Under the pieces are notes generated by a model. It made no database searches. It was given only the letters and a program-made list of their open reading frames with translations, and was not told where the DNA came from. From Williamsia sp. 1135 (lineage in GTDB: Bacteria; Actinomycetota; Actinomycetes; Mycobacteriales; Mycobacteriaceae): a stretch of 64,000 nt of DNA. The translations under genes and the position numbers were made by a program. Below, in pieces: positions 850 to 18,362 of the stretch (position 1 is its first letter; each line of letters begins with the position of its first letter). The stretch lies in contig NZ_MJEI01000077.1 in NCBI RefSeq assembly GCF_002095395.1, positions 1-64,000 on the forward strand. Reading direction: 5' to 3'.

Positions 850-863
850 CAACGCGTACTTCT

Positions 864-1169: not shown

Positions 1170-1271
1170 GTGAACATCCTCCCAGCGGAACCGCTGATCC
1201 CGCTAGCTCGGTGTCCACTACCTGGGGGGAACCTCAGATCAAGGTTGACCGATGAGACGAAAGTCGACTGT

Positions 1272-1635
1272 GTGAGCGCTCCACGGAATAGTCGGGTGCC
1301 GAACCGCCGCGTCGCGGAAACCATTGCCGCCGACCTGCGTAGCTTGATCTTGGCAGCCGAGAGCTATCAACTTCCCACCCAAGATGAACTAGTCCGCGAT
1401 TTCGGGGTCAGCTACCCCTCAGTCCGCGAAGCATTGCGCATTCTGGAGACTGAGGGCCTGGTCACTGTTCGACAAGGAAGTGTTGGTGGCGCCGATATCC
1501 ATCGGCCCGACGGGTTTCGGCGGCTTATCACATTGGGCTCGCCCTGCAAGCCGCAGGTGCCACACTCCGCGATCTTGCACAAGGACTTTTGAAATTAGAG
1601 CCCACGATGGCGGCAAGATGCGGGACTCGACCATG
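1272..1635 (+). pseudogene. GntR/FadR-family regulator, frameshifted remnant
   Basis: From GTG 1272 the frame gives a convincing GntR winged helix: RRVAETIAADLRSLI, LPTQDELVRDFGVSYPSVRE, ALRILETEGLVTVRQGSVGG. After about residue 80 the frame changes to unrelated sequence and stops at 1592. A neighbouring frame resumes the expected helical ligand-binding domain (AYHIGLALQAAGATLRDLAQ, then GLLKLEPTMAARC) before it too degrades. FadR-type proteins are about 220-250 residues, so the effector domain is lost. The IS3 element ends some 35 bases upstream, so the gene is probably also cut off from its promoter. Confidence 0.75.
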
Positions 1636-1778
1636 TGACCGAACGTCAGGACCTCATTACGCATGCTCCGGACGTCAACACGAAGCATCACGTGGGGCAT
1701 CTGCGCCGAAATACGCGTACCGCTCAAAAGTATAACGCCCAGCCCCACCTGAAACGCCTCAGACTCACGCACATCTGC

Positions 1779-2021
1779 TTAACGCAGCGCTCCTGGCTTG
1801 GTGACGATCTTTGCCGCCCGGGGGCCGATGGTTGAATCGGGCGGCCACCCTGGCCAGTTCTCTTCGAGTTCGACGGTGTGGCCGGTAACGTGCCCCAGCC
1901 CGTGCAGCTGCACGATTCCGGGCAGATAGGGAAGCAGGGTTTCGTACGTCACCACCACGATCTCGTCTTCGGCTGTGCTGACTACTCGCACGTCGTGGCT
2001 GGCGTTGATCTGAATGATCAC
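1779..2021 (-). CDS. Small hypothetical protein, last gene of the monooxygenase operon
   Basis: An 80-residue product starting at GTG 2021, which overlaps the stop codon of the NIPSNAP gene, a sign of translational coupling. The sequence is rich in beta-forming segments (MIIQINASHDVRVVSTAED, IVVVTYETLLPYLPGIVQLH) and ends with PRAAKIVTKPGALR. I do not recognise a family. Its position as the seventh gene of the leftward operon suggests an accessory part of the same pathway. It could be a small ligand-binding or dimerisation protein, but nothing in the sequence shows that. Confidence 0.6.
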   Translation of the reverse strand: MIIQINASHDVRVVSTAEDEIVVVTYETLLPYLPGIVQLHGLGHVTGHTVELEENWPGWPPDSTIGPRAAKIVTKPGALR

Positions 2022-2347
2022 GGCGCTGCTTCGATGGGGTCGTCATCGATCACCCGCCGACGCATTCTCTGAATCAGTGCACCGTCCCTCTCGGCATCGG
2101 CGAATGCTTCTTGCCAGTCGGGATCTGACAGCATCTGGGTCCATTTGCTTTCCAGCTCTGCGAGATCGGCGAAGCGAAGGGTGTAGACCAATTCGCCAAA
2201 TGAGTTCTCGCCGATCAGTGTGCGGCCGGCGCTGACCAACTCCATGTCGTATCGGATGAACGTGGGGGCAGTGTGATTGTTGAACAGGTCGATGATTGCC
2301 GGTAGACGACCGGGTACGGCGACATACTCTCGGACTTCGAAGATCAT
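2018..2347 (-). CDS. NIPSNAP-family protein
   Basis: This 109-residue protein has the short ferredoxin-like barrel of the NIPSNAP/Dabb superfamily: it opens with MIFEVREYVAVPGRLPAIID and continues with ELVYTLRFADLAELESKW, a typical dimeric alpha+beta barrel pattern. Family members in actinobacteria are often found in catabolic operons, where their biochemical role is usually unknown. I chose ATG 2347 over an upstream in-frame ATG because this is where the family match begins and a purine-rich stretch precedes it. It is 22 bases downstream of the flavin reductase gene and overlaps the next gene. Confidence 0.75.
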   Translation of the reverse strand: MIFEVREYVAVPGRLPAIIDLFNNHTAPTFIRYDMELVSAGRTLIGENSFGELVYTLRFADLAELESKWTQMLSDPDWQEAFADAERDGALIQRMRRRVIDDDPIEAAP

Positions 2348-2369
2348 GGTGTTCCTTCGCTGCTGGCGG

Positions 2370-2936
2370 CTACGACTGCGGGGTGGACAGTTCGTGAAAT
2401 CGACTGGCATAGAATATGAGTGGGTCCTGTTCCTCCTCGGTGCGGTGCCCGAGGATACGCAGCAGGACGAACTCATGGTCGCCGGTGGTGGTCTCCACTT
2501 CGATTTCGCACTCGAGCCAGGCGGTGGCACCGTGCAGAAACAACGCCCCGCTGGGCCCTGTCTCCCAGCTCAAGCCGGCAAACCGGTCGACATTGCGGGC
2601 GGCGAGTTGTCGGCACGCTGCCTTCTGGTTGGCCCCCAACACTGACAGCCCGATGCGTGGACGCGAACGCAGCTCTGGCCACGTGGTCGACGATTTCTGA
2701 ACGAAGACGCCCACCAGTGGCGGCTCCAACGACACGTTGACGAAAGCGCTGACGGCCATGCCGATCGGTTGTTCAGATGAACCGGTGGCACACAGCGCGG
2801 TCACCCCGCTCGGGAACCGGCTGAATGTGGCTCGCAGTTCAACGGTGCCCACAATGCCGGCGGCGTCCTGCACGCTTCGGAGATGAGTGGATTCCACAAC
2901 GTGCCCTCTGACTTCCTTCTGCGTTTCAGAACACAT
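2370..2936 (-). CDS. Flavin reductase (HpaC-like) of a two-component monooxygenase
   Basis: About 188 residues with the FMN-binding split-barrel fold of NAD(P)H:flavin oxidoreductases: RATFSRFPSGVTALCATGS, then GMAVSAFVNVSLEPPLVGVF, then RPRIGLSVLGANQ. These enzymes supply free reduced FMN to a partner oxygenase; the obvious partner is the luciferase-like protein encoded at the head of this operon. ATG 2936 overlaps the end of the PRPP synthase gene; a GTG about 14 codons later is an alternative. The family assignment is firm, the partner is an inference from context. Confidence 0.85.
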   Translation of the reverse strand: MCSETQKEVRGHVVESTHLRSVQDAAGIVGTVELRATFSRFPSGVTALCATGSSEQPIGMAVSAFVNVSLEPPLVGVFVQKSSTTWPELRSRPRIGLSVLGANQKAACRQLAARNVDRFAGLSWETGPSGALFLHGATAWLECEIEVETTTGDHEFVLLRILGHRTEEEQDPLIFYASRFHELSTPQS

Positions 2937-3918
2937 GATTTTTCCCGCCGAATACTTCGCTGACCGAGTTGTCGGTGAAGATGCGGCCGATGGTGTCGGC
3001 CAACATCGGCGCGCAGGAAACCACATCGATGGTCGACGGGGCACCGGGGCGCAGCGGGATCGTGTCGGTGACAACGATGCGCTCGAACGGCGAATCGGAG
3101 AGGTTCTCGTACGCTCGTCCGCTGAATACCGCATGCGTGGCTGCGGCAAAGACCCGGCGACTTCCGGCCTGCTGCACCGCTTCCCCTGCCGCGCGTAGCG
3201 TGCCCGCGGTGTCGATGATGTCGTCGACGATGATCGCCGTCTTTCCCCGCACATCGCCGATCACATTGGTGATCTCAGCCACCTGCTGCTGGGGGCGTTC
3301 CTTGTCCATGATCGCCAGGCCGGCGCCGATCCGGGTGGCGAACTGTTTGTTGAGCTTCACCCGTCCGGCATCAGGTGCGACCACCACCAGATCATCATCA
3401 AGATCGGCAAAATGGTCGGCGAGCATCATCAGCGCAGTCATGTGGTCAACCGGGATACTGAAGAAGCCCTGGAGCTGACCAGCATGCAGGTCCATGGTGA
3501 GCACTCGGTCAACGCCGGTTGCCTCCAAGATGCGTGCAACCATTCGCGCCGAAATCGGCTCTCGCGGAGCAGATTTCTTGTCCTGGCGGGAATACCCGAA
3601 CCACGGTGTCACGGCCACCACGCGGTGGGCACTCGCACCGACGGCAGCATCGATCATGACCAGCAGCTCGACAAGTGCATCGTTGGCATTGAGGCCCTCT
3701 TCAGGATTTGCGCACATCGGCTGAATCAGAAACACGTCTGCCCCACGAACAGACTCGTCGAACCGGCAGTACACCTCGCCGCTCGAGAAGGTCTTGAGGG
3801 TGATCATTCCGAGGTCGACCTGGAGGTGCGAGGCAATCGACGCGGCCAGGGCCGGGTTGGCTCTGCCCGAGAACATCATCAACTTCTTCTGAAAACCGAA
3901 GGGGAGAGAGGTCGTCAT
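2926..3918 (-). CDS. prs: Ribose-phosphate pyrophosphokinase (PRPP synthase), accessory copy
   Basis: Makes 5-phosphoribosyl-1-pyrophosphate from ribose-5-phosphate and ATP. The 330-residue protein has all class I landmarks: an N-terminal MMFSGRANPALAASIAS, the flexible-loop region FGYSRQDKKSAPREPISA, the DLHAGQLQGFF segment, and the PRPP loop VVDDIIDTAGTL near residue 225. A housekeeping prs is normally elsewhere in a genome beside glmU, so a second copy inside a catabolic operon directly after ribokinase suggests local PRPP production for a dedicated phosphoribosyltransferase, for which the NAMPT-like enzyme at 12700 is the candidate. Confidence 0.93.
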   Translation of the reverse strand: MTTSLPFGFQKKLMMFSGRANPALAASIASHLQVDLGMITLKTFSSGEVYCRFDESVRGADVFLIQPMCANPEEGLNANDALVELLVMIDAAVGASAHRVVAVTPWFGYSRQDKKSAPREPISARMVARILEATGVDRVLTMDLHAGQLQGFFSIPVDHMTALMMLADHFADLDDDLVVVAPDAGRVKLNKQFATRIGAGLAIMDKERPQQQVAEITNVIGDVRGKTAIIVDDIIDTAGTLRAAGEAVQQAGSRRVFAAATHAVFSGRAYENLSDSPFERIVVTDTIPLRPGAPSTIDVVSCAPMLADTIGRIFTDNSVSEVFGGKNHVF

Positions 3919-4008
3919 GGTGGTCTTTCCGAGTAGTTGTCACGGGTGTCATAGGTTGTCACTGGGCGGCTGTGGCCGTTCCGATGTTCAGCCTGTAGAA
4001 GGGCACGA

Positions 4009-4932
4009 TCACAGACGAGCCGCGTCGACCTCCTCTGCCGAAGGCATGCCACTCCGGGCGCCACTGTGGCGCACGGATAGAGATGCTGCTGCCACGGCTC
4101 GGGTACTGGCTGCGGTAAGAGTCATTCCTACCGAAAGGCCTGCTGCGAGAACGCCATTGAACGTATCTCCGGCGCCGGTGGTATCGCGGACGTCTGGCAC
4201 CGCCACAGCTGGGATCGGTCCGGTTGTACCGTCCGGGGAGGCGACAAGCGCTCCGCCGGCACCCAGAGTGACGGCCAGGCGGGCACCGGTGGCCTGCGCG
4301 ACCCTTACTGCGGCATCGGCGATGTCGCTGTACGGGACTGCAAGCACGTTGCACAGGTCGCGCAGCTCGGAGGCATTGGGGGTCAGGATCGACGCGGTGT
4401 GCGCGGCCGCGACGAGGTCGGTGCGCATGGGTGCAGGATTGAGCACGCAGAGCAGTCGTAGATCACGGGCCGTGGTGACCGCCGCTTCGACCGCCGCCGA
4501 GGAGATTTCTGTACTGACCAGCACGCAACTGGCCCAGCCTGCGGCACGGATGACGCCGGACCGAACGAGCGCCGGGTCGACGACGGCGTTGGCTCCCGCA
4601 GCTACTGCGATCTGGTTTTCTCCCGCACTGTCGACGACGATCAGGGCGGTGCCGGTCGCAACGTCCTCGAGTACTGCGACGTCGACGACGTCGATGTTCG
4701 CGCTGCGCAGGTCGGCCAGCGCCTCGCGCCCCAGATCGTCGGATCCGACAGCGCCGCAATAGCGAACCGGTGCGTTCATGCGAGCAGCGGCGATTGCGGC
4801 ATTGGCGCCCTTGCCGCCTCCGAACTTGTCGAGACGAGGACCGACCACGGTCTCGCCCGGGCCAGGCAACCGATCCGCGACAACCACGAGGTCGACGTTG
4901 AGTGCGCCGATCACCAGGACCCCGTCGTTCAT
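4009..4932 (-). CDS. rbsK: Ribokinase (PfkB family)
   Basis: Phosphorylates ribose to ribose-5-phosphate. The 307-residue protein opens with VIGALNVDLVVVADRLPGPG, has the sugar-site glycine stretch KFGGGKGANAAIAAARM, the LNPAP and TPNASEL segments, and the catalytic anion-hole motif DTTGAGDTFNGVLAAGL near residue 250. ATG 4932 was preferred over GTG 4938 because GGGGAG lies at good distance. It precedes the PRPP synthase gene, so the two would convert ribose to PRPP in two steps. Another nucleoside-linked sugar substrate is possible. Confidence 0.9.
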   Translation of the reverse strand: MNDGVLVIGALNVDLVVVADRLPGPGETVVGPRLDKFGGGKGANAAIAAARMNAPVRYCGAVGSDDLGREALADLRSANIDVVDVAVLEDVATGTALIVVDSAGENQIAVAAGANAVVDPALVRSGVIRAAGWASCVLVSTEISSAAVEAAVTTARDLRLLCVLNPAPMRTDLVAAAHTASILTPNASELRDLCNVLAVPYSDIADAAVRVAQATGARLAVTLGAGGALVASPDGTTGPIPAVAVPDVRDTTGAGDTFNGVLAAGLSVGMTLTAASTRAVAAASLSVRHSGARSGMPSAEEVDAARL

Positions 4933-4971
4933 TGCCACTCCCCGGGACTTGTCGCCACAACCGCCACTTGG

Positions 4972-5727
4972 CTAGGACCGTCCACTGGCCCACGACAGAA
5001 TCGAGTTCCACAAAATCGGGTAGCCAGTCCACTCGACGAACTCTGGCGGCGCCCAGTGTGGGGCGAGGTCCGAGGTGAAAGCGACCGCGCGACCCGCGCC
5101 GAATCCACCGGTGACCAGGATGGGATCATCCCCACTACGGGCGATGACTTCGGCAGTGTCGTCGGCGATCACTCGGTTGTATCCCAAGAGCGGCGGCCAA
5201 TCTCCAGGTGTTGCGCCGAGTACGGCGTGTTCAGGCGCACAAACCTCGACCTTGCAGCCCTCGGGGACCTCGATCCGGTCGTCATACGGCAGCATGGTCA
5301 CCGGCAGAACGTTGGCGAGTGGGGTCATACCGAATCGAGCCTTGCCGTCGATCCCGGTGAAGGAAAGATAGCCCCCGATCATGACCAGTCCGCCGCCTCG
5401 GCCCACGTAGTCTGCCACCACGCCGAGCCGGTTGGGTGAAGTTTGCGAGCGCAGGAAGGTCTCATCGGGAAGCTGAAACGAGTTCGAGCCGATATCGGAG
5501 ATGACCACCACGTCGTACTCGTCGATCTCGTGCGCGGATGTAGGAAATCGCGACGAAATCTCGTGTCCGCGCACGTAGTTGACGGTGTGGCCGTCTGAGG
5601 CGAGATTGTCGAGGAAGGTGGTGGCGCCTTCCTCGTACTCAGTCGAGTGAAACTGGTCGAAACCTTTCATATGGATCGTGTGTTTGATCCACGATTCACC
5701 GGCGAAGAGGATGTTGAGTGGTTCCAT
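4972..5727 (-). CDS. Class I glutamine amidotransferase-like protein (STM3548/ThuA-like)
   Basis: A 251-residue protein with the Rossmann-like GATase1 fold of putative cytoplasmic amidotransferases: MEPLNILFAGESWIKHTIHM, EYDVVVISDIGSNSF, YVGRGGGLVMIGGYLSF, and a late GGFGAGRAVAFTSDLAPHW near residue 220. The usual nucleophile-elbow cysteine of true amidotransferases is not evident, as in many members of this branch, so the activity is unknown. The start at ATG 5727 has a strong AGGAG. It lies between the luciferase-like gene and ribokinase. Family known, function unassigned. Confidence 0.75.
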   Translation of the reverse strand: MEPLNILFAGESWIKHTIHMKGFDQFHSTEYEEGATTFLDNLASDGHTVNYVRGHEISSRFPTSAHEIDEYDVVVISDIGSNSFQLPDETFLRSQTSPNRLGVVADYVGRGGGLVMIGGYLSFTGIDGKARFGMTPLANVLPVTMLPYDDRIEVPEGCKVEVCAPEHAVLGATPGDWPPLLGYNRVIADDTAEVIARSGDDPILVTGGFGAGRAVAFTSDLAPHWAPPEFVEWTGYPILWNSILSWASGRS

Positions 5728-5840
5728 GGTGTTCTCCTGTGTGGCGTCAGGGTTCGGGCAGAAGTCCCGGAGGTAGGTCGAGGTATTTGGGTCGCGCATC
5801 GTCAACCCGACTTCGAGTTTGTGGGGAACTCGACTGGGGC

Positions 5841-6932
5841 TCAGGAGAACTCGGGAAGAACTTCTCTGGCCATGAATTCCATGTTCTTGATGACGGCCCC
5901 GATGGGCTGGCCGACGGCGACCAGACACGCCATGTGGTCGACACCGAGTGCCTCGTAAGATTTGAACCTCTCGATCATTCGATCGGGCGTGGTGAGGATC
6001 GGGTCAGCATACTTTTCGAAAAGCCCATCCTTGGAGACCGACTCCTGTGCGGGTACCATTGCGCCGGCCCTGACCACAGAGTCGTCCTTTTCGCCGTCGG
6101 CGCGTGCTGCCAGTCGTTCTTCCTTGGTCTTGTTGCTGTTGCTGCCGGCATGCACCAAGGTGAGGTAGTAGTTGTATTCACTGAGCACATCATCGAAATA
6201 CTCGGTGGCTTCTTCTTCTGTGCTTCCGAGCCACGTGTGACGCAGGGCCATGACCTGCTGGCGGGCCAGGCCGGTCTTGTCGATTTCGTCGTTGTAGGCC
6301 TCCAGCAGCGCTTCAAGATCGCCGTAGGGCTCGAAATTGCCATAGTTCGGTGCCGTGATCAGATTGGTGCCTTGATGCGCGACGCGGCGTACTCCGTCGA
6401 TACTTTGCGAGGCGGTCCACAACTCGGGGTGGGGATCTGAGGCCGGCTTGGGAACGAGCGTGGTCGGCGGGAACGAGAAGTACTTGCCTTCGTATGACAC
6501 GTCGTCCTCCATCCACACCCGTTTGATTATCTCCAGGGACTCCTCGTAGATTTCGCGCGAGTCCTTCGGGTCGATGCCGATGCGATCGAGAGGGTAACGA
6601 CTGCCTCCGCGAGCCACCCCGATGCCGATGCGACCAGGTGCCATCTGGTCGAGGAAGCTCATCTCCGATGCGATGAGCAGTGGGTTGTAGTACGGAAGCA
6701 CCACGATGCCGGGCATGATCCGCAAACGCTTGGTACGCGCTGCAGCCAAAGCGCTGAACATCATCGACGAAGGATTGCTCACGTAATTCTGAAAGTGGTT
6801 CTCGTTGACCGTGACGCCCTCGAAACCGAGATTCTCCGCCGCGTCGACGATGCTGAGCATGTCGTTGAGGAGCTCTGACCACGGACGGTTCATGTCGCGG
6901 TAAAAGAACGGTGTTGTGAACCAGATCTTCAT
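5841..6932 (-). CDS. LLM-class (luciferase-like) flavin-dependent monooxygenase
   Basis: A 363-residue TIM-barrel oxygenase of the bacterial luciferase group, expected to use reduced FMN and O2 to oxidise or open an organic substrate. Seen: an N-terminal WFTTPFFYRDMN, NLGFEGVTVNENHFQ, the SNPSSMMFSALAAARTKRLR segment, and PGRIGIGVARGGSRYPLDRI, all typical of the family. It is first in the leftward operon, with a flavin reductase five genes on. Two-component LLM enzymes of this kind act in N-heterocycle catabolism in actinobacteria (for example pyridine), which fits the neighbouring amidohydrolase and aldehyde dehydrogenase; the real substrate is unknown. Confidence 0.85.
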   Translation of the reverse strand: MKIWFTTPFFYRDMNRPWSELLNDMLSIVDAAENLGFEGVTVNENHFQNYVSNPSSMMFSALAAARTKRLRIMPGIVVLPYYNPLLIASEMSFLDQMAPGRIGIGVARGGSRYPLDRIGIDPKDSREIYEESLEIIKRVWMEDDVSYEGKYFSFPPTTLVPKPASDPHPELWTASQSIDGVRRVAHQGTNLITAPNYGNFEPYGDLEALLEAYNDEIDKTGLARQQVMALRHTWLGSTEEEATEYFDDVLSEYNYYLTLVHAGSNSNKTKEERLAARADGEKDDSVVRAGAMVPAQESVSKDGLFEKYADPILTTPDRMIERFKSYEALGVDHMACLVAVGQPIGAVIKNMEFMAREVLPEFS

Positions 6933-7036
6933 GAAATGTAATCCCCTCTATACCGGTGGAATGTCTTGTTCAGGTGGGGCCCGATCTTCAGGCCCCAGCC
7001 CTGCGCCGCCGAGGCCGTCGATATCTTGAAGCCTCG

Positions 7037-7065
7037 TGATAAAGACCCAAACCTCAGGCGGTCAA
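7037..7065 (-). promoter_or_regulatory. Candidate promoter of the leftward monooxygenase operon
   Basis: On the minus strand TTGACC (7065-7060) is followed after 17 bases by TTATCA (7042-7037). It lies about 105 bases upstream of the monooxygenase ATG, directly beside the operator-like palindrome at 7072-7085. The -10 match is weak, so confidence is modest. Confidence 0.4.
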
Positions 7066-7071
7066 CGCCAA

Positions 7072-7085
7072 TAGAAACGATTCTA
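7072..7085. promoter_or_regulatory. LacI-type operator, copy 1 (TAGAAACGATTCTA)
   Basis: A 14-base near-palindrome with arms TAGAA and TTCTA around a central CG, the form typical of LacI-family operators. It is identical to the site at 7579 and lies upstream of the leftward operon. The regulator encoded at 10893-11918 is the natural candidate to bind it. Confidence 0.7.
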
Positions 7086-7578
7086 TCATGGCGGGTCCTC
7101 CGCTGTACATATCGATGCGCAGATAGGCTCGGATCACACCCGCACCCCAGGTCCCTACCGAGGACCTACTCGACGACTCCGTAACCCCCGCAGATGATTT
7201 GGACGACACCGGCCCGGCCGGCCTCAAGTCACGGCGGTGTTCTCGTGATAGATAAAGCACACGACGAACAACGCAGCCGGCAGAAGCCCCGGTCCGAGTG
7301 GTCATCCACCACCCGCAGAATAATCGATTCTTCGGGTGCTCGCCACACGAGAGGAGAACGACCTTCGAGGCCGCCGGCCCCAGCCGATGCGGTGCCACAA
7401 CAGGCACCTCAGTCTGACGCTGCGGCGCACGTCACGGGCTGGTATCTTCACAACCACGAAAACGGACGCGACGGCCCCCTCTCAGCTCACGAACCCACGT
7501 TGAGGGGCGGCGCCGATCCCACCTACGGAATCGCAACGAGTTCTGCTACCTGCGGTTGCCAGGGAATACGTTTGGGTG

Positions 7579-7592
7579 TAGAAACGATTCTA
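7579..7592. promoter_or_regulatory. LacI-type operator, copy 2 (TAGAAACGATTCTA)
   Basis: An exact copy of the 7072 site, placed about 118 bases before the aldehyde dehydrogenase start codon. Two identical 14-base matches at both sides of a divergent intergenic region are unlikely by chance. Confidence 0.7.
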
Positions 7593-7709
7593 GCCTGTGG
7601 TCGTGAAGGCGAGTCGGCCTTTGGCCCCCGCCGCTGCGTAGGTATGAGGATGACCCTTGCGTTGCCTGAGCTGACGTGACATCGCCACCTAGATGAATAG
7701 GAAACGAGA

Positions 7710-9182: not shown

Positions 9183-9258
9183 TGCTCGGCATTGCAGGAG
9201 TGTGGCCGAAGCCGCAGTCACCGACGGCGATTCGTACTGAACAGTTAGTAGGTAGGTA

Positions 9259-10530
9259 GTGAATGACATCGCCATCGAGAACGGCCTGTTGTGGCTGGGT
9301 TCTGGAGAGTGCCACAAGGCGGGCCTCCTCTACATCAAGGACGGCAGGGTCAGCTATGCCGGCGACCACCGCGCGGACGTCGTTCCCCCGGGTACAGAGT
9401 GCATCGATGCAACAGGGTGTGCGGTGTTGCCAGGTCTGATTGATTGTCATGTGCATCTGACGACGAACTCAGACAGCCGCCGGGTCGTTGCCAGCGATGT
9501 CTTCCGTGGCCAGCGGACCGGTCCCGAGAAGCTGTTACACGGCTATCGAAACTCACTGCGGGCGCTCAGCGCGGGATTCACGACGCTGCGCTGCATGGGC
9601 CACCGGGGAGTCGGCGAGACCGAGTTGCGAGACATGATCGCTGACGGTCTGATGATCGGGCCGAATCTCGTTGTCGCCCCGTGGTGGATCACCATGACGA
9701 ACGGTCACGGCGACCTGTTCTACCCCCCATACACATCCCGACGCAAGTGGGATACCGCCGACGGCGTCGACGCCTGTCGGGAAATGGTCCGCTTGCAAGC
9801 CCGCAGCGGAGCAGACTTCATCAAGGTGATGGCCAGTGGCGGAATGTCGAAGGGAGAGAAGCCTCATTGGCCCAACTACACCGTTGCCGAGCTCTCTGCA
9901 GTTGTCGAGGAGGCTCATGACATGGATCTACGTGTCGCCGCGCACGCTCTATCGCTCGAGGGCATTCGTCGCAGCATCGAGGCCGGCGTCGACAGTATCG
10001 AACACGGCTCCTACCTCGACGAGGACTGCGCCGGCGAGATGGTGCGTCGAGGAATCTATCTGGTTCCCACCATGGCATTCAACGACTGGTGTCAACGCGA
10101 AGGCACCGAACGCGGCCTGACTTCGTCGGGTGTCGAGGGTCTGCGTGATGCACATGACCGAACGCTGGAGGCCTTCGGTCTCGCGCGTTCGGCAGGAGTC
10201 AAGATTGCGATGGGCACGGACTCGTCGGGAACGCTCTGCCCATTTGGGGCACATTATCGAGAACTCGAACTCTATGTTGAGCACGGCATGTCAACGATGG
10301 AAGCTCTGGCAACCGCGACCGGAACGGCGTCAGATCTGCTGGACAGGCCAGATGTCGGCTCTCTTCGAAGCGGCTCCATCGGCGACGTATTGATCGTCGA
10401 CCAGGGGGTTCTCGATGACATATCTCTCCTGCGCGGGGGTATCAAATCCGTGTTGCGGTCCGGACGCGATATCAGCACCTACTTGGCAGCGTCATCAGAG
10501 GCACTCGAGCTGGAGGTGTCGACGAATTGA
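9259..10530 (+). CDS. Metal-dependent amidohydrolase (imidazolonepropionase/prolidase-like)
   Basis: A 423-residue amidohydrolase-superfamily enzyme expected to hydrolyse a C-N bond with a binuclear metal centre. The metal ligands are visible: HVH in LIDCHVHLT (residues 64 and 66), a likely carboxylated lysine in DFIKVMASGGM (about residue 189), histidines in RVAAHALS and SIEHGSY, and the aspartate in MGTDSSG. It resembles the COG1228 group (HutI-like enzymes and Xaa-Pro-type peptidases). The start is GTG 9259. It is 76 bases after the aldehyde dehydrogenase gene. A plausible job is hydrolysis of an amide or cyclic amide formed by the monooxygenase. Confidence 0.9.
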   Translation: MNDIAIENGLLWLGSGECHKAGLLYIKDGRVSYAGDHRADVVPPGTECIDATGCAVLPGLIDCHVHLTTNSDSRRVVASDVFRGQRTGPEKLLHGYRNSLRALSAGFTTLRCMGHRGVGETELRDMIADGLMIGPNLVVAPWWITMTNGHGDLFYPPYTSRRKWDTADGVDACREMVRLQARSGADFIKVMASGGMSKGEKPHWPNYTVAELSAVVEEAHDMDLRVAAHALSLEGIRRSIEAGVDSIEHGSYLDEDCAGEMVRRGIYLVPTMAFNDWCQREGTERGLTSSGVEGLRDAHDRTLEAFGLARSAGVKIAMGTDSSGTLCPFGAHYRELELYVEHGMSTMEALATATGTASDLLDRPDVGSLRSGSIGDVLIVDQGVLDDISLLRGGIKSVLRSGRDISTYLAASSEALELEVSTN

Positions 10531-10612
10531 TGTGGAGAGCGCCTGCCCTTCACGAGCGATCCCTTGTCACAGGTATCTCGATGGTTGAACAACAGGAAGA
10601 AGGGCACAAGAA

Positions 10613-10801
10613 ATGCCATACATAGAAGCAAGCTTTTTCGAGGATCGGTTCGCTGACAACCAATTCGCCTCGGACATGGTTGCAGAACTGACCAAGGCGG
10701 TATCGGCTGTGCTCGGAGAGGACATTGCCGCGGATACGACGGTCGTGATACACGGCATACCGCGCGAACGGTGGGGCCACGGTGGCAAGATGATGGGATG
10801 A
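10613..10801 (+). CDS. 4-oxalocrotonate tautomerase-family protein
   Basis: A 62-residue protein with the catalytic N-terminal proline (MPYIEASFFEDR) and the length of 4-OT enzymes, which interconvert enol and keto forms in ring-cleavage pathways. The middle TKAVSAVLGEDIAADTTVVI matches the helix and second strand. It lies between the amidohydrolase and lacI genes on the same strand, supporting a role in processing an unsaturated intermediate after ring opening. The tail (RERWGHGGKMMG) is as in other 4-OT paralogues. Confidence 0.85.
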   Translation: MPYIEASFFEDRFADNQFASDMVAELTKAVSAVLGEDIAADTTVVIHGIPRERWGHGGKMMG

Positions 10802-10892
10802 TCGCGCCCGGTGTGCGTCGCGGGCCCGCCAACGATCGACACGTGTCCCACGTCCGGGTTGCAGGCGCGGGTGGCGGTAGATTGATGCCTCT

Positions 10893-11918
10893 ATGAACAA
10901 GGGTCGGCCACCAACGATGAAGGACGTCGCTCGCCACGCGGGCGTCTCCGTCAGCACTGTGAGCTACGTTCTCAACGACAGCGGCCCGGTTGCTCCGGCA
11001 CGCAAAGCCCGGGTGCTCGATGCGGTACGTGTCCTCGACTACGCCCCGAACGAAGCCGCCCGCGGCCTCAAGAGGAGATCGGCCCCAACCATCGGCCTGG
11101 TTGTACCCGAACTCTCAAATCAGTTCTTCGCGTTGCTGGTCGAGGGCGTCGAGCAGACGGTCTCTGCCAGTGGCGGATTGGTGGTCCTGTGCGCCCCGGA
11201 GGCCACGGGCGCGGCAGAATCGGTGAACGGTCGACTACTGCGCAGCCAGCGGATCAACGGCATCGTCTACCTTTCGGGTGCCATGACGTCGCCGCGGTCC
11301 CTGCTCGAGCTCACCCGACTGGGACCGGTGGTCCTCGTCGACGAGCAAGTGCCCGGTTTTGATCTGCCCGCGATCGTCTCTGACAACCGCCGTGGAGCGC
11401 GTGAGGTCGCTGCGCATGTCATCGGTTTCGGCCATCGCAGGTTAGCAATCATCGCCGGACCGAAGAACCTGTGGTCGACACAGCAACGCCTGTCGGGATA
11501 CCGAGAAGCGATCGCGTCCATCGGGATCGAGCCCGATTCGGTCCCCATCCATTGGGGCGACTATCACCAACAGTCCGGATGGGACGGCGCCGACAAGTTC
11601 CTCTCCGGCCCACCCGCTGATCGACCCACCGCCCTCCTCTGCGCGAACGATCTGATGGCCGTCGGTGCCCTCGAATACTGCCGTTCACGAAACATCACCG
11701 TCCCCACCGATCTGAGTGTGGTCGGTTTCGACGATCTCCCGTTCGTCTCGCTGCTGACGCCACGACTCACCACTGTCCGCCAGCCGGCTCGCGACATGGG
11801 CCAGCAGGCGGCATCGCTGCTCTCGGACCTCATCGAGGACACCGCCGGCCCGGAATCGCCCGACCCGCTGCCGACCACACTGCAGGTCAGGGACTCGGTT
11901 GTTACGCCGAGCGACTAA
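10893..11918 (+). CDS. LacI-family transcriptional regulator
   Basis: A 341-residue regulator: an N-terminal LacI headpiece (TMKDVARHAGVSVSTVSYVL, then NDSGPVAPARKARVLDAV), then a periplasmic-binding-protein-like effector domain (TIGLVVPELSNQFFALLVEG through SVVGFDDLPFVSLLTPRLTT). This is the typical sugar/nucleoside-sensing architecture. It sits between the catabolic genes and the NAMPT operon, all of which carry TAGAA-N4-TTCTA sites upstream. It is therefore the best candidate for a local repressor responding to a ribosyl compound or pathway intermediate; the effector is not known. Confidence 0.93.
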   Translation: MNKGRPPTMKDVARHAGVSVSTVSYVLNDSGPVAPARKARVLDAVRVLDYAPNEAARGLKRRSAPTIGLVVPELSNQFFALLVEGVEQTVSASGGLVVLCAPEATGAAESVNGRLLRSQRINGIVYLSGAMTSPRSLLELTRLGPVVLVDEQVPGFDLPAIVSDNRRGAREVAAHVIGFGHRRLAIIAGPKNLWSTQQRLSGYREAIASIGIEPDSVPIHWGDYHQQSGWDGADKFLSGPPADRPTALLCANDLMAVGALEYCRSRNITVPTDLSVVGFDDLPFVSLLTPRLTTVRQPARDMGQQAASLLSDLIEDTAGPESPDPLPTTLQVRDSVVTPSD

Positions 11919-12226
11919 CCCTCGTCCCCACACCACTCCCCCGGTGTCGATGGTGCAGGACGCATCGACGCCATGATCGTCATGGCCATGGACATCACCG
12001 GTGATCCAACTCGCCACGTAGCAAGAACCTGATGCAGTAGCGGCCGCAGTAGACCTCCCTACCGAATCACTTTTGCGCTGAGCGCAATCCGGCACGAGCC
12101 GCTCATCGCCTCGCCTCGCCGCGTTCTCTTGTCAGCATCGGCAGCTCGGGTGTGCCGTTTAACTCATGCACAACCTGATGAATCCCTCCGGACACATTCA
12201 ACCCGTCTGCGCGCCTGGCCCTACGG

Positions 12227-12240
12227 TAGAACGCATTCTA
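12227..12240. promoter_or_regulatory. LacI-type operator, copy 3 (TAGAACGCATTCTA)
   Basis: Same TAGAA and TTCTA arms and the same 4-base spacing as the sites at 7072 and 7579, with CGCA at the centre. It lies upstream of the NAMPT-like operon. Confidence 0.65.
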
Positions 12241-12432
12241 GCGATCACCCGATGAGGACCGTCGAGATGTGAACCCAACAATAAGATCTGCTCACAGCGG
12301 CCAGACCAGACGAACGAAACTAGGCCTTGAACTGGCCTTTAGTCTGGACTTCCTGAAGAGCTTCCACCGTCCGGCGGCCTGTCAGACGCCCCAGGGATTA
12401 CTACGTGCCCTTGCACCTCTTGCATTCACAAG

Positions 12433-12446
12433 TAGAAACGATAATA
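12433..12446. promoter_or_regulatory. LacI-type operator, degenerate copy 4
   Basis: TAGAAACGATAATA keeps the first half and centre of the operator but has two changes in the second arm. It directly abuts the inverted repeat at 12447-12465. A further half-site (TAGAAACGAATCCA, 12663-12676) lies just before the NAMPT ribosome binding site. Confidence 0.45.
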
Positions 12447-12465
12447 GTGGTGTGTGTTACACCAC
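12447..12465. repeat. Inverted repeat beside operator copy 4
   Basis: GTGGTGT and ACACCAC form a perfect 7-base inverted repeat around GTGTT. It could be an operator for a second regulator or a hairpin near the transcription start of the NAMPT operon. Confidence 0.45.
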
Positions 12466-12699
12466 ATTGTCGAGGTGCATCACCTCGGCCACCTGGGCAA
12501 ACAACTCCGACTCGGAGGTCCTCCGACATCGAAACATCGTGTTAACCAACGCCTTACCGTCGTCGGGGCAAGATGAACAGTGCCGTCCCACAGGGACTCG
12601 TCGACGCGCACCGGCCCGACCCTCAGACGATCTGCGAAACACCACCGGGCGAGAACGACCAGTAGAAACGAATCCACCCGCAATCGACAGGAACCAGAA

Positions 12700-14166
12700 A
12701 TGCCGCTCAGCAGCAGCTACGACAACATCATCATCAACACCGATAACTACAAGCACTGCCATTACCCGCTCTACCCACCGGGCACCGAGTACGTGAATAG
12801 CTACATCGAATCCCGTGGCGGCGAGTTCCCAGTGACGATGTTCGTCGGTCTGCAGGCCTTCCTCCGTGACTACCTCATGCATCCCATCACGCTCGAGGAC
12901 ATCGATCAGGCCGAGTACTACATGCGCGAGCAAGGCATGCATTTCAACCGTGAGAACTGGATGGGGATCCTCAACGACCACGGTGGATTCCTACCCGTCG
13001 AGATCGAGGCGGTCCCAGAGGGTTTGGTGATGCCGACCAAGAACGTGCTGGTCCAGATCATCAACACCGACCCAAAGTATTTCTGGGCCACCAGCTTCTT
13101 CGAGACCGCTCTGCTGCGCGCAGTGTGGTACCCGACCACGGTCGGCACCATCAGCTGGCTTGCCAAGGCCGTCATCCGCGAGGCCCTGGACCGCACCTCC
13201 GACAATCCCGGTGTACTTCGGCACATGCTGCACGACTACGGCGCCCGCGGCGTCAGCTCGCAGCAGTCGGCCGCTCTCGGTGGACTCGCGCATCTCGTCA
13301 ACTTCTCCCAAAGCGACACCGTGCCCGGCATCATCGCCGCGAAAGAGATCTACAACGCGGTGGCGCCGTCCAATTCCGGCCCCAACTCCGAGCACGCCGG
13401 GTTCTCGGCCTGGGGTCGTGACAATGAGGCCGCGGCAATGCGGAACATGCTCGAGGTCCACGCTCCGTCCGGATGCGCACTGCTGCTCACGGACACGTAC
13501 GACCATGAGAACGCTGTCAAGAACATCATCGGCAAGGAACTCGCCGAAGAGGTCCGCAACTTCCCCGGACTCGTCGGTGTCCGCCCAGATTCCGGCGATG
13601 TCGTCCAGGTGACCGCGGACACGACCGAATGGTTGATGGATGCATTCGGCTATGAAGTCAACAGCAAGGGCTTCAAGGTGCTGCCGCCGTTCGTCCGCAC
13701 GGTGCAGGGCGATGGCGTCAACCGGGACAGCCTACCGTTGGTGTTCGCCGAGATGGAGCGGCGCGGAATGTCTGCCGAGAACGCCGTCTTCGGTATGGGT
13801 GGCGGGCTGTTGCAGCACTGCAACCGAGACACGATGAACTTCGGGCAGAAGGCCAGCGCGGTCATGGTCAACGGTGAGTGGCGTGCTATCGGCAAGTCCC
13901 CCACCGGTGACCTGATGAAGACGTCGAAGAAGGGGCGTCTCGCCCTGACCTTCGAGGACGGCGAGTACAAGACCGTGCAGCGCGACTCGGTGAGCCCCGA
14001 GCAGAATCTGCTCAAGCCGGTCTTCCGCAACGGCAAGCTCCTCAAGAAGTGGGACTTCAGTGAGTTGATCGAACTCAGCGAAAAGGACGTACCGGAGGCG
14101 TACTACGCGGCGGCCATCGCGCCCCTACGCAACGCCGTCAGCGGTCAGGACGCCGCAGTCGCCTGA
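12700..14166 (+). CDS. nadV: Nicotinamide phosphoribosyltransferase family protein (NAMPT/NadV)
   Basis: A 488-residue member of the NAMPT family, which joins nicotinamide to PRPP to give NMN. Recognisable family segments: DNYKHCHYPLYPPGTEYV at the start, DYGARGVSSQQSAALGGLAH (about residue 180) followed by VNFSQSDT, whose aspartate matches the amide-binding residue of the human enzyme, NSEHAGFSAWGRDNE (about residue 229), GVRPDSGDVV (about residue 295) and FGMGGGLLQ. It starts at ATG 12700 with AGGAA upstream. Nearby PRPP synthase and ribokinase could feed it. It may do NAD salvage or activate a related heterocycle; the retained aspartate favours a carboxamide-bearing base. Confidence 0.92.
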   Translation: MPLSSSYDNIIINTDNYKHCHYPLYPPGTEYVNSYIESRGGEFPVTMFVGLQAFLRDYLMHPITLEDIDQAEYYMREQGMHFNRENWMGILNDHGGFLPVEIEAVPEGLVMPTKNVLVQIINTDPKYFWATSFFETALLRAVWYPTTVGTISWLAKAVIREALDRTSDNPGVLRHMLHDYGARGVSSQQSAALGGLAHLVNFSQSDTVPGIIAAKEIYNAVAPSNSGPNSEHAGFSAWGRDNEAAAMRNMLEVHAPSGCALLLTDTYDHENAVKNIIGKELAEEVRNFPGLVGVRPDSGDVVQVTADTTEWLMDAFGYEVNSKGFKVLPPFVRTVQGDGVNRDSLPLVFAEMERRGMSAENAVFGMGGGLLQHCNRDTMNFGQKASAVMVNGEWRAIGKSPTGDLMKTSKKGRLALTFEDGEYKTVQRDSVSPEQNLLKPVFRNGKLLKKWDFSELIELSEKDVPEAYYAAAIAPLRNAVSGQDAAVA

Positions 14167-14179
14167 GCCCTCCTCTCTT

Positions 14180-14217
14180 CGACCCGGTGGTCAGGGCAAT
14201 GCCCGACCACCGGGTCG
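14180..14217. terminator. Strong hairpin between nadV and the HAD gene
   Basis: CGACCCGGTGGTC (14180-14192) is perfectly complementary to GACCACCGGGTCG (14205-14217), and inside it GGGC pairs with GCCC around AAT. The stem has 17 pairs with one bulged A. No T-run follows, so it may act as partial terminator or as an mRNA-stabilising processing hairpin that sets nadV above the genes downstream. Confidence 0.6.
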
Positions 14218-14262
14218 ATATCGTCACAAGTGCCGACAAACCTCGAAGGGATCAATGACCCT

Positions 14263-14901
14263 GTGACCAAGCTGCACATTTTCGACATGGACGGCACGCT
14301 TCTGCGATCGACCGCGTCAATCGAGATATCGAAGGTCAGCGGCAACATGGCGATCGCTGAAGAAATCGAAGAGAACTGGTTGCTCGGGCGGATCACCGAC
14401 ATCCAGTTCTGGCAGCAATGTCTGCCCATCTGGGCTGACATGACCGAGGCCGACATCGATCACGCCTTTCTGAACGCACCGTGGATCGATGCGGTCCAGG
14501 ACGTCTTCGCCGACATCGCCCGCCGCGGCGAGCGCAGCGTTGTCATCTCGCAGTCGCCCGAGTTCTTCGTCAGGCGCTTCACATCGTGGGGCGCGCACGG
14601 TGCGTTCGGGACCGGGATCGAGATCGGCATCGAACCGCACGAAGACATGCTGTTGTCCGCCGACGACAAGGTCACCATCGTTCAGGACCTGTTGCTACAG
14701 TACGGACTCGGCGCGAATGACTGCGTCGCCTACGGTGATTCGACCTCCGATGTCCCCTTGTTTCGCTGGCTTCCCAACACCGTGGCCATGAACGCGAGCC
14801 CACAGGTCCGTGAACTGGCCTCCGTGGAATACGACGGGCTCGATCTGCGCGAAGCCTACGAAATCGGCCTGTCCCTGATATCTGGGCGCGCCGTGTCATG
14901 A
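14263..14901 (+). CDS. HAD-superfamily phosphatase (SerB-like)
   Basis: About 212 residues with the four HAD motifs: the nucleophile in FDMDGTLL, the threonine/serine motif VVISQSP, a lysine in ADDKVTIV, and the acidic motif AYGDSTSDVPLF. A small helical cap after motif I is SerB/IB-like. It should remove phosphate from a small metabolite. Placed after the NAMPT-like gene and overlapping the nucleoside hydrolase gene (ATGA), it could dephosphorylate a ribotide to a riboside. I chose GTG 14263 because AAGGG lies 12 bases upstream and the fold begins just after it; GTG 14230 is also possible. Confidence 0.85.
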   Translation: MTKLHIFDMDGTLLRSTASIEISKVSGNMAIAEEIEENWLLGRITDIQFWQQCLPIWADMTEADIDHAFLNAPWIDAVQDVFADIARRGERSVVISQSPEFFVRRFTSWGAHGAFGTGIEIGIEPHEDMLLSADDKVTIVQDLLLQYGLGANDCVAYGDSTSDVPLFRWLPNTVAMNASPQVRELASVEYDGLDLREAYEIGLSLISGRAVS

Positions 14902-15857
14902 TCCCGGTCGGTGGCCCGCTTTATCTGGACTGTGACACCGGCATCGACGATGCGTTGGCGCTGGCCTTTCTGCTCGGTGCCGGCCACCCACCTGATCTGG
15001 TCGGCACCGTCAGCGGGAATGTCAGCGCCACCGTCGCAGCCGACAATACGCGCCGGATCCTGGCCCTCTTCGGGCATTCGGACATCCCAGTTGCGGTCGG
15101 TTGCGACTACCCACCCCTGCTCGGTCATCCTCGCGGCGCACCGCAATTTCATGGCGCCAACGGAATCGGCGGAGTGACCCTTGCACCCGCGCGTACGCCG
15201 CCACCGCCCACAGCCGGAGCAGTCGAGGAGATGATCACGTTGGCTCAGCGGCATCGGGGTGCGCTTCACATCATCGCTACCGGGCCGCTGACAAACATCG
15301 CCGAAGCGCTGCGCCGCGAGCCCGATCTGCCCGATGCGATCGCGTCCATCACGGTGATGGGAGGCGCTGCACACGTACCCGGCAATGTAACTCCGTACGC
15401 CGAGGCCAACATTCTCGGTGACCCCGAGGCCGCAGCAGCGACGTTCACGGCACGTTGGCACCAGCTCCTGCTGGTGCCAATCGACATCACCAACAAGCAT
15501 TTGCTTAGCGTTGCTGACAAACAGCGACTCCTCCATTCCCCCAGCGCTGCAATACGTTCCGTGGGGATGATGCTGGATTGGTACTTCGACTCCTACGGGC
15601 CGGTCCATGCTGGCTTGTGGTGCCCTACCCACGACCCGTTGGCCGCGGCGCTCGCCGTCGGCGCCGTGGAGCTGACAGACGCTCCTACGGTGACCATTAC
15701 CGTGGACACCAGCATGGGTCCGCAGCGGGGACGGATGACCGTGCGCGCAGTCGCAAGATCTGACATCGCGCCGTTCGTGCGTGTCGCGCTCGGGACGAGG
15801 CAGCAGTCGGCAGATACCATCATCGACGCAGTCTGCGGCCTCGCCGGGACTGGTTGA
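14898..15857 (+). CDS. Inosine-uridine-type nucleoside hydrolase
   Basis: A 319-residue IUNH-family enzyme that splits an N-riboside into base and ribose. The calcium/ribose-binding signature is seen at the N-terminus (LDCDTGIDDALALAF), followed by TVSGNVSATVAADNTRR, the YVTNIA-like block IATGPLTNIAEALRR, VMGGAAHVPGN, EANILGDPEAAA and the late catalytic-aspartate region TVTITVDTSM. Translationally coupled to the HAD gene by an ATGA overlap. Its product ribose would be the substrate of the ribokinase at 4009-4932. Base specificity cannot be predicted. Confidence 0.92.
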   Translation: MIPVGGPLYLDCDTGIDDALALAFLLGAGHPPDLVGTVSGNVSATVAADNTRRILALFGHSDIPVAVGCDYPPLLGHPRGAPQFHGANGIGGVTLAPARTPPPPTAGAVEEMITLAQRHRGALHIIATGPLTNIAEALRREPDLPDAIASITVMGGAAHVPGNVTPYAEANILGDPEAAAATFTARWHQLLLVPIDITNKHLLSVADKQRLLHSPSAAIRSVGMMLDWYFDSYGPVHAGLWCPTHDPLAAALAVGAVELTDAPTVTITVDTSMGPQRGRMTVRAVARSDIAPFVRVALGTRQQSADTIIDAVCGLAGTG

Positions 15858-15876
15858 CCATCTGGGAGGATTGCGG

Positions 15877-18320: not shown

Positions 18321-18362
18321 TTGATGGTCCTTGATGGAGGGGGTTTACGTGAGGTGAAAGTC

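Follow-up and report, generated by a model that had tools for sequence, protein, structure and literature searches.

Unsubstituted pyridine is a common pollutant for whose breakdown there are two old and competing descriptions, one oxidative, yielding a C4 compound and a one-carbon unit, and the other reductive, leading to glutarate; the reductive route reportedly passes through glutarate semialdehyde. The pyr cluster of Arthrobacter sp. 68b is said to consist of plasmid-borne pyridine-degradation genes, among them a two-component flavin monooxygenase, a flavin reductase, an aldehyde dehydrogenase, an amidohydrolase and a succinate-semialdehyde dehydrogenase (SSADH), and for a two-component monooxygenase encoded with comparable pathway genes, direct cleavage of free pyridine has been reported, no activation step being needed beforehand. 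In the trigonelline (N-methylnicotinate) pathway, encoded by tgnABCD, the ring of an N-alkylated pyridinium is opened by a two-component flavin monooxygenase, after which an aldehyde dehydrogenase and a hydrolase act. A further point of reference is human NAMPT, in which F193, G217, A244 and the S275 region belong to the nicotinamide pocket, D219 contacts the nicotinamide amide, and R196, D219, H247, R311 and D313 have PRPP-related or catalytic roles.

Here a gene cluster is analysed that lies at the left end of a 64,000-nucleotide stretch of DNA from Williamsia sp. 1135 (termed here the window). With some reserve, we favour the view that it is a plasmid-borne catabolic cluster for an N-heterocycle, most likely pyridine or a close analogue, which would be N-phosphoribosylated and opened, its ribose being recycled to PRPP. 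The corresponding general strategy, on which our confidence is evenly divided, would turn a plain azine into an NMN-like pyridinium for either oxidation by a luciferase-like (LLM) monooxygenase or reduction by F420H2, with the ribose handle recycled through ribokinase and PRPP synthase as an interchangeable module. Among the papers listed by the literature searches, which covered few subscription papers, none joins phosphoribosyl transfer to pyridine breakdown, and to that extent the strategy is undescribed. If true, a shared phosphoribosyl entry step would unite both pyridine routes and account for the presence of F420 genes in one of them, and the handle would be a reusable sugar-phosphate counterpart to CoA-activation in catabolism; moreover, some genes annotated as 'nicotinate phosphoribosyltransferase', including members of the clade described below, are probably not NAD-salvage genes.

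Gene content and limits of the unit

The window opens with a 15.9 kb block (1..15858) that is 97% identical to a congener contig, L109, by blastn of L109 against the window, and whose right end lies 1 base beyond the nucleoside-hydrolase gene. An IS3-type transposase, recognized by its rve domains, sits at the window's left edge inside this block. The block is taken to be a mobile unit and, judging from its genes, is probably a catabolic cluster for pyridine-like rings. Its features, with domains called from Pfam and NCBIfam models, are as follows.

1..15858, no strand: unit taken to be mobile; 97% identity to L109, IS3-type transposase included
1779..2021, minus: 80-aa ORF; the R. pyridinivorans cluster has a copy with 55% identity
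2018..2347, minus: NIPSNAP-like protein; 73-75% identity with the gene annotated as NIPSNAP in locus L003; ends from translation
2370..2900 (start approximate), minus: flavin reductase, putative reductase partner of the monooxygenase; PF01613
2926..3918, minus: ribose-phosphate diphosphokinase (PRPP synthase); TIGR01251; the genome's third full copy
4009..4938, minus: ribokinase-like PfkB kinase; PF00294; TIGR02152 at 239.8 bits, below its cut-off of 299.65
4972..5727, minus: PF07090 GATase1-like (STM1381-like) protein, conserved core; PF07090, PDB 3soz/2gk3
5841..6932, minus: LLM flavin monooxygenase, proposed ring-opening enzyme; PF00296
7710..9182, plus: aldehyde dehydrogenase; PF00171
9259..10530, plus: amidohydrolase, proposed formamide hydrolase; PF01979
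10613..10801, plus: 4-OT-like tautomerase, 62 aa; homology to annotated 'tautomerase family' genes in L003/L004
10893..11918, plus: LacI-family regulator; PF00356/PF13377
12700..14166 (ORF opens at 12580), plus: NAMPT-family phosphoribosyltransferase with remodelled base pocket; PF18127+PF04095, pocket signature
14230..14901, plus: HAD-IB phosphatase, proposed ribotide 5'-phosphatase; PF12710/TIGR01488, motif residues kept
14898..15857, plus: IU-type nucleoside hydrolase, optional in relatives; PF01156, conserved Asp cluster

All of the enzyme classes that a sequence-only reading had named for 1779-15857 are thus present, the tautomerase by homology and the others by Pfam/NCBIfam models, and the HAD, nucleoside hydrolase and ribokinase copies retain their characteristic motifs. 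The PF07090 protein, the LacI regulator and the NIPSNAP-like protein, which that reading did not mention, are conserved as well. Two candidates were set aside: the PfkB/NCS1 permease/ADP-ribosylglycohydrolase/GntR cassette at 15877-20080, which lies outside the unit given that the block shared with L109 extends no further than 15858 (queries with the cassette's permease and glycohydrolase matched the window only, among the loci they were compared with), and a 161-aa ORF at 7194-7679, which has no Pfam match and sits between the divergent LLM and aldehyde dehydrogenase genes.

Spacing suggests three gene runs: on the minus strand LLM-PF07090-ribokinase-PRPP synthase-flavin reductase-NIPSNAP, and on the plus strand aldehyde dehydrogenase-amidohydrolase-tautomerase-LacI and NAMPT-HAD-nucleoside hydrolase. 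By this gene order the PRPP synthase and ribokinase belong to the monooxygenase's own run. The PRPP synthase is, as had been supposed, surplus to housekeeping, because the genome holds two other full copies; elsewhere in the genome there is a single distant PF04095 relative (23.9 bits). Copies of the LLM gene that are 87% and 70% identical occur on Rhodococcus and Arthrobacter plasmids.

Conservation of the gene neighbourhood

Relatives were retrieved with the window's own transferase, and are therefore kin (53-99% identity); the neighbourhood set excludes pieces of the window's genome or of G002 (L001, L002, L008, L009), and L075 has no countable transferase ORF. Rates refer to those 44 of 71 loci whose two flanks each span 6 kb or more (termed here full-flank loci). 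Because the loci are related to one another, and some adjoin each other on a single contig (L042/L056, L054/L055), these counts are not independent, and the gene-family models were built from the very loci in which they were counted. For comparison, eight controls were chosen from 40 plasmid records of less than 60% identity, their NadV label coming from annotation, distance and context. Among the clade's hosts are one species whose name refers to pyridine use and another that is reported to use pyridine.

Within 10.5 kb of the transferase, the HAD phosphatase occurs in 41/44 full-flank loci, the PRPP synthase, LacI regulator and PF07090 protein in 37/44 each, and the ribokinase in 35/44; the models failed to detect the phosphatase in 3/44 and the ribokinase in 9/44. 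(Over all 71 loci the counts are HAD 60, LacI 55, PF07090 54, PRPP synthase 53, ribokinase 48, nucleoside hydrolase 37 and LOG-like phosphoribohydrolase 14.) Of these genes the NadV controls hold only the PRPP synthase, in 4/8 loci, with flanks of 8 kb as against 6-10.5 kb for the clade. In the reverse direction, the transferase is present in all 14 genomes found to carry the LLM gene, at most 9.1 kb away on one contig in 13 of them (in the 14th, LLM lies at a contig end); and in 6/6 plasmid records with an LLM of at least 60% identity the two genes lie within 10.2 kb. The association of the transferase with PRPP synthase and LLM that the earlier reading proposed to look for is thus a recurrent one, and the finding that it had named beforehand as fatal, namely that the genes occur together only in the window, was not made. 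Because the gene set recurs across clade loci, its assembly goes beyond chance.

The closed ribose loop envisaged earlier survives in part. Its ribokinase and PRPP synthase recur as just described; the nucleoside hydrolase is optional, being found near the transferase in 25/44 loci (30/44 when a LOG-like phosphoribohydrolase is also accepted). A loop closing solely through the nucleoside hydrolase is therefore rejected, the family model finding none near the transferase in 19/44. With the NMNAT/Nudix genes of four control loci as queries, there was no match in the 70 fetched clade loci; nor did Pfam/NCBIfam reveal an NMN adenylyltransferase or Nudix domain in the window's unit, which is outside the 70-locus set.

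A remodelled base pocket

The transferase contains both NAMPT_N (PF18127, 80.6 bits) and the NAPRTase fold (PF04095, 127.4 bits), each above its cut-off, and matches 7yqo with E = 5e-118. In human numbering, Y18, R196, D219, H247, R311 and D313 are retained in the clade, and R196, D219, H247, R311 and D313 are invariant in 62/62 main-clade sequences (those of at least 66% identity). The canonical nicotinamide pocket is not kept: F193, G217 and A244 are replaced by Y, Q and N in 62/62 of these sequences, whereas 8/8 NadV controls have F, G and A, and the S275 region has L/I in 62/62 versus S/A in 8/8. At the position of human S248 the clade carries A, yet A also occurs in 1/8 controls. Among eight more distant members, six deviate at 193 or 244, and two of these (DK176, ZPP) belong to type II clusters, defined below. 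Some clusters also hold paralogous transferases with other pockets, which suggests that several bases may be served.

Two pathway contexts

The module is placed in two different ring-breaking pathways. In type I loci, such as the window's, the LLM monooxygenase, aldehyde dehydrogenase, amidohydrolase and tautomerase stand beside it; in type II loci a PNPOx-like protein does, often with F420 and glutaryl-CoA genes and without an LLM gene. (Because the LLM and PNPOx-like genes define the types, their presence in 12/12 and 25/25 loci, respectively, is by definition.) Among the 12 full-flank type I loci, the NIPSNAP-like model matches in 11 and a flavin reductase is detected in just 6. An SSADH gene occurs in L003 and, by homology, in L015, L017 and L022; the window's unit has no separate one. 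Among the 25 type II loci, 15 have an F420 gene and 10 a glutaryl-CoA dehydrogenase (GCDH) or CoA-transferase within 10.5 kb. The type II GCDH matches PDB 3swo at 645.6 bits, the F420-dependent G6PDH exceeds its cut-off, the CoA-transferase has succinate--glutarate CoA-transferase as its best match, below cut-off, and the PNPOx-like protein weakly matches an F420 family. The set of GCDH, F420-dependent G6PDH and CoA-transferase fits an unsubstituted five-carbon ring.

The pocket signature is identical between type I and type II transferases. In the transferase tree the window's sequence groups with type II ones (99, on a starred and thus less safe branch), and a quick tree method gives a minimum of 9 type changes, with the qualification that short-flank loci may carry the wrong label.

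Proposed mechanism and its alternatives

From the gene content, the conservation, the pocket change and the module's two contexts, all of which are observed, we infer a substrate, each reaction and the reaction order. The changed-pocket enzyme would move 5-phosphoribose from PRPP onto the ring nitrogen, making the ring an electron-poor N-ribosylpyridinium, and the HAD enzyme would take off the phosphate. The FMNH2-dependent LLM enzyme, with the flavin reductase, would break the ring open; the aldehyde dehydrogenase, tautomerase and amidohydrolase would then yield formate and a C4 semialdehyde and release ribosylamine, which would decay to ribose and ammonia; and ribokinase and the dedicated PRPP synthase would return the ribose to PRPP. 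The nucleoside hydrolase, if present, would salvage unused riboside. In type II the activated ring would be reduced by F420H2 and then hydrolysed toward glutarate.

It is rather unlikely that the LLM enzyme attacks free pyridine, as in the known direct pathway, and that the phosphoribosyl genes serve a side function, either trapping volatile pyridine as a ribotide or guarding NAD metabolism against pyridine-derived false nucleotides. The direct cleavage reported for such a monooxygenase, which is the main evidence against the reading favoured here, speaks for this, as does the agreement of the type I enzyme classes with the reported pyr gene list; and direct cleavage, if true for this LLM family, would mean that type I loci can do without the ribosylation step. 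Yet transferases of the same type and pocket also occur in type II clusters, which lack LLM, and the PRPP synthase and ribokinase sit within the LLM gene run. Distinctly improbable is that the ribosyl-handle logic applies to another substrate (nicotinamide or nicotinate riboside, a picoline or a diazine), in which case that base, once N-ribosylated, would be what the LLM enzyme attacks. Nicotinamide is a possible substrate because D219 is kept, and the differing pockets of the paralogues point the same way, but the type II GCDH indicates an unsubstituted C5 chain and the two hosts mentioned above are associated with pyridine itself.

Least credible is the plainer alternative that the earlier reading itself had offered, namely salvage of NAD(P) precursors, here the conversion of nicotinamide to NMN, encoded next to an unrelated oxidation pathway, which we regard as very improbable. 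The transferase does belong to the NAMPT/NadV family with its catalytic residues kept, and PRPP synthase adjoins NadV in half of the controls. Such an accidental pairing nevertheless fits poorly, because NMNAT/Nudix matches number 0/70 in clade loci as against 4/8 in controls (whose genes were the queries), because the nearly ubiquitous phosphatase would destroy NMN and, together with N-ribosidase genes, undo it, and because the base pocket is altered. The ribosyl-handle interpretation, as judged from sequence comparisons, is partly supported.

Comparison with known systems

Like the pyr cluster, by its reported gene list, the window's unit brings together a flavin monooxygenase, flavin reductase, aldehyde dehydrogenase and amidohydrolase; unlike it, the unit has no separate SSADH gene, and the published pyr scheme, compared by description only, reportedly has no phosphoribosyl step. 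The plasmid records listed in the searches include none from Arthrobacter sp. 68b. The tgn pathway, likened here by description rather than sequence, shows that the opening of an N-substituted ring has a precedent in known chemistry, with the difference that its substituent arrives with the substrate, whereas here it would be added from PRPP and recycled. With bacterial NadV the clade shares its family, its PRPP chemistry and a PRPP synthase neighbour (in 4/8 controls), but differs in its remodelled pocket, in having as neighbours catabolic genes together with phosphatase, ribokinase and nucleoside hydrolase genes, and in showing no NMNAT match in the 70 fetched loci. Finally, type II resembles the reductive pyridine route in having candidate reductases, two aldehyde dehydrogenases, a CoA-transferase and a glutaryl-CoA dehydrogenase that correspond to the route's end; to that route, as commonly described, it would add cofactor F420 and N-phosphoribosylation.

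Composition and boundaries of the unit

The island at 1779-15857 had been proposed, in a sequence-only reading, to activate a nitrogen heterocycle by N-phosphoribosylation and to recycle the ribose handle; domain, family and homology searches of the window recovered every enzyme listed in that proposal. The features referred to here are:

1-1592 region (left edge of the window): IS3-type transposase, by domain search
1116-1592: short GntR-type HTH ORF, possibly a fragment
4972-5727, minus strand: PF07090 protein
5841-6932, minus strand: luciferase-like flavin monooxygenase (LLM), the proposed ring opener
12700-14166, plus strand: NAMPT-family phosphoribosyltransferase (the transferase)
15877-20080, minus strand: cassette of PfkB kinase, NCS1 nucleobase permease, ADP-ribosylglycohydrolase and GntR-UTRA regulator, by domain search

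The minus strand of the unit encodes the LLM, the PF07090 protein, a ribokinase-like kinase, a PRPP synthase, a flavin reductase, a NIPSNAP-like protein and an 80-aa ORF, an order that places the PRPP synthase and ribokinase within the monooxygenase's own gene run. Elsewhere in the genome there are two other full PRPP synthases and one ribokinase-like gene 55% identical to the kinase. The plus strand encodes an aldehyde dehydrogenase, an amidohydrolase, a tautomerase and a LacI regulator, followed by the transferase, a HAD-IB phosphatase and a nucleoside hydrolase, the last two genes overlapping by four bases.

The limits of the unit are indicated by a 17,163-base contig (L109) from a second genome of the genus (G002), which matches window positions 1-15858 at 97% identity over 15,865 bases and whose match ends one base past the nucleoside-hydrolase gene; the two LLM proteins are 100% identical and the two transferases 98%. 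The 15877-20080 cassette adjoins this shared block but lies outside it, and looks like a separate nucleoside-use cassette. Farther right, at 20000-64000, are ParA-like, P450, cutinase-like and TraD/TraG-like genes and, at the window's end, a 2067-aa open frame; the ParA- and TraD/TraG-like genes suggest a conjugative plasmid, and this region is probably its backbone. The 23 family models constructed in this work gave no match in the window between 20 and 64 kb.

Recurrence of the module

A search outward from the transferase found it at 66 loci across the genome collection and, at ≥60% identity, in 12 plasmid records (5 plasmids were fetched), from which a set of 71 neighborhoods was assembled (65 genomic, 5 plasmid and the window). 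For the 44 loci with at least 6 kb on each side of the transferase, neighbors within 10.5 kb were counted: HAD phosphatase in 41, PRPP synthase, LacI and PF07090 protein in 37 each, ribokinase in 35, nucleoside hydrolase in 25, LOG-like phosphoribohydrolase in 11, and one or other of these last two in 30. HAD phosphatase and PRPP synthase occur together in 35/44, and both with ribokinase in 30/44. The association of transferase and PRPP synthase recurs. The PF07090 protein is kin to structures 3soz and 2gk3, themselves of unknown function.

As controls, eight NadV loci were picked from 40 plasmid records below 60% identity and examined with 8 kb flanks: four contain a PRPP synthase and none contains any other counted family. 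Because loci are not independent, Fisher values are a rough guide only; for PRPP synthase alone the difference between clade and controls is weak (0.05). NMN adenylyltransferase and Nudix genes from four controls, used as queries, gave no match in the 70 fetched clade loci.

At strict limits, a search outward from the LLM shows it to be rare: genomes with the gene number 3 out of 397 in the order (the window's own included), a single one, again the window's own, out of 396 in the phylum, 12 out of 390 in one family and 2 out of 9 in the genus (G002 and the window's own). By contrast, 2 out of 19 genomes in one genus have the transferase. All 14 genomes with the LLM, several of which probably overlap with the 66 transferase loci, also have the transferase, in 13 of them on the same contig and at most 9.1 kb away; in the other (G196) a contig end cuts the LLM gene. 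Likewise, the transferase lies within 10.2 kb in 6/6 plasmid records with an LLM at ≥60% identity, though five of these are nearly equal in score and may represent one spread cluster.

Two pathways around one module

Seen from the transferase, 12 of the 44 loci have the LLM (type I), one has both it and a PNPOx-like protein, and the rest lack it, 25 having the PNPOx-like protein (type II) and six neither. Companions of type I are NIPSNAP (11/12), tautomerase (8/12), amidohydrolase (7/12) and flavin reductase (6/12), joined on a Rhodococcus pyridinivorans plasmid by SSADH and FdhF/FdhD-type genes. Companions of type II are a cupin (25/25), F420-synthesis or F420-dependent G6PDH genes (15/25) and glutaryl-CoA dehydrogenase or CoA-transferase (10/25), with both sorts in 8/25. 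F420-synthesis genes, glutaryl-CoA dehydrogenase and CoA-transferase were found in 0/12 type I loci; one of the 12 matches the F420-G6PDH model.

Going by its best structure matches (3swo, 645.6 bits; human 1siq, 370), the acyl-CoA dehydrogenase of L057 is a glutaryl-CoA dehydrogenase, and the F420-G6PDH of L024 exceeds the curated cut-off (423.8 versus 420); the CoA-transferase of L075 is nearest to succinate--glutarate CoA-transferase, at a score below cut-off, and the PNPOx-like protein of L024 matches an F420-type family weakly. Genome G787 has a near-complete type II set, with no F420-synthesis genes found in the 20 kb read. Among type II loci, Pfam searches placed LOG (PF03641) in L066 and phosphoglucose isomerase in L067. 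L024 combines phosphoglucose isomerase, F420-dependent G6PDH and lactonase genes, and L061 and L067 the isomerase and lactonase, an apparent on-site supply of F420H2 from glucose-6-phosphate.

In L004 (17530-18609) a flavin reductase looks, by eye, fused to a SnoaL-like domain, and type II locus L024 encodes a stand-alone SnoaL-like protein, a possible second link between the types. L045 is a type I cluster in the sulfonamide degrader Candidatus Leucobacter sulfamidivorax.

Base pocket and history of the transferase

The transferase is 43-47% identical to three controls and about 30% to others, and keeps the PRPP and catalytic residues. The altered positions (human NAMPT numbering, taken off the alignment) are ones that line the nicotinamide site of the human enzyme. 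In the main clade (≥66% identity, n = 62), F193→Y, G217→Q, A244→N, S248→A and S275→L or I occur in 62/62, V242→G in 59/62 and Y240→N in 58/62; the controls keep F193, G217 and A244 in 8/8, with S (seven) or A (one) at 248. The signature YQNGNAL is present in 15/18 type I and 23/26 type II sequences. With D219 conserved throughout the main clade, nicotinamide is still a possible substrate. All eight more distant members have Q217; six, including those of the Rhodococcus DK176 and ZPP plasmids, deviate at 193 or 244 and, judging from these residues, may use another base. Distant relatives with other pocket letters occur in L050, L030, L072, L059, L005 and L006, the first two of which also hold a main-clade copy beside them; these relatives, too, may serve other bases.

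A quick tree of 78 transferases (support values, starred, are for quick-method branches) separates the clade from the controls (99*) and joins the window's transferase and its G002 copy to type II genes from Rhodococcus opacus, R. jostii and JS3073 (99*), away from the remaining type I genes. Pairwise comparison gives the same picture, with 84-85% identity to those three and 72-80% to the 16 other type I loci (the G002 copy aside). At minimum nine switches between types are needed, and the type I label alone changes at least six times when only starred branches are trusted. Probably an oxidative pathway and a reductive one have repeatedly shared the transferase, as would be expected if it makes the first intermediate common to both.

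A possible mechanism and its main rival

Gene presence and kept catalytic motifs are observed; from known family chemistry we infer every reaction, and their order, as follows. The transferase would convert base and PRPP to an N-ribotide, which the HAD phosphatase would convert to the N-riboside. In type I, the LLM, with FMNH2 and O2, would open the ring to an N-formyl-N-ribosyl aldehyde, from which aldehyde dehydrogenase, tautomerase and amidohydrolase would yield formate and an enamine; the latter would break up into succinate semialdehyde and ribosylamine, and the ribosylamine into ammonia and ribose, which ribokinase and PRPP synthase would return to PRPP, closing the cycle. In type II, the activated ring would be reduced by F420H2 and hydrolysed to a C5 dialdehyde, which two aldehyde dehydrogenases would convert to glutarate, leading to glutaryl-CoA and crotonyl-CoA. 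The phosphatase step would cost one extra ATP per turn, which would make sense only if later enzymes need the riboside.

The main rival is direct cleavage of free pyridine, with ribosylation perhaps a requirement in vivo alone or of type II alone, or else a means of trapping. In its favor, Casaite and colleagues are said to have described, in 2020, a two-component monooxygenase that cleaves free pyridine directly; this bears on the window only if its LLM is an ortholog of that enzyme. We consider direct cleavage unlikely, though a serious contender, and favor activation by phosphoribosylation. Among the matches listed by a literature search, none described a phosphoribosylation step in the degradation of pyridine, which is weak evidence, many papers being outside the search's reach and matches being listed only in part for one query. 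Compared with known systems, the pyridine-type degradation cluster looks like one of a known kind, and the phosphoribosyl module within it like one hitherto undescribed.
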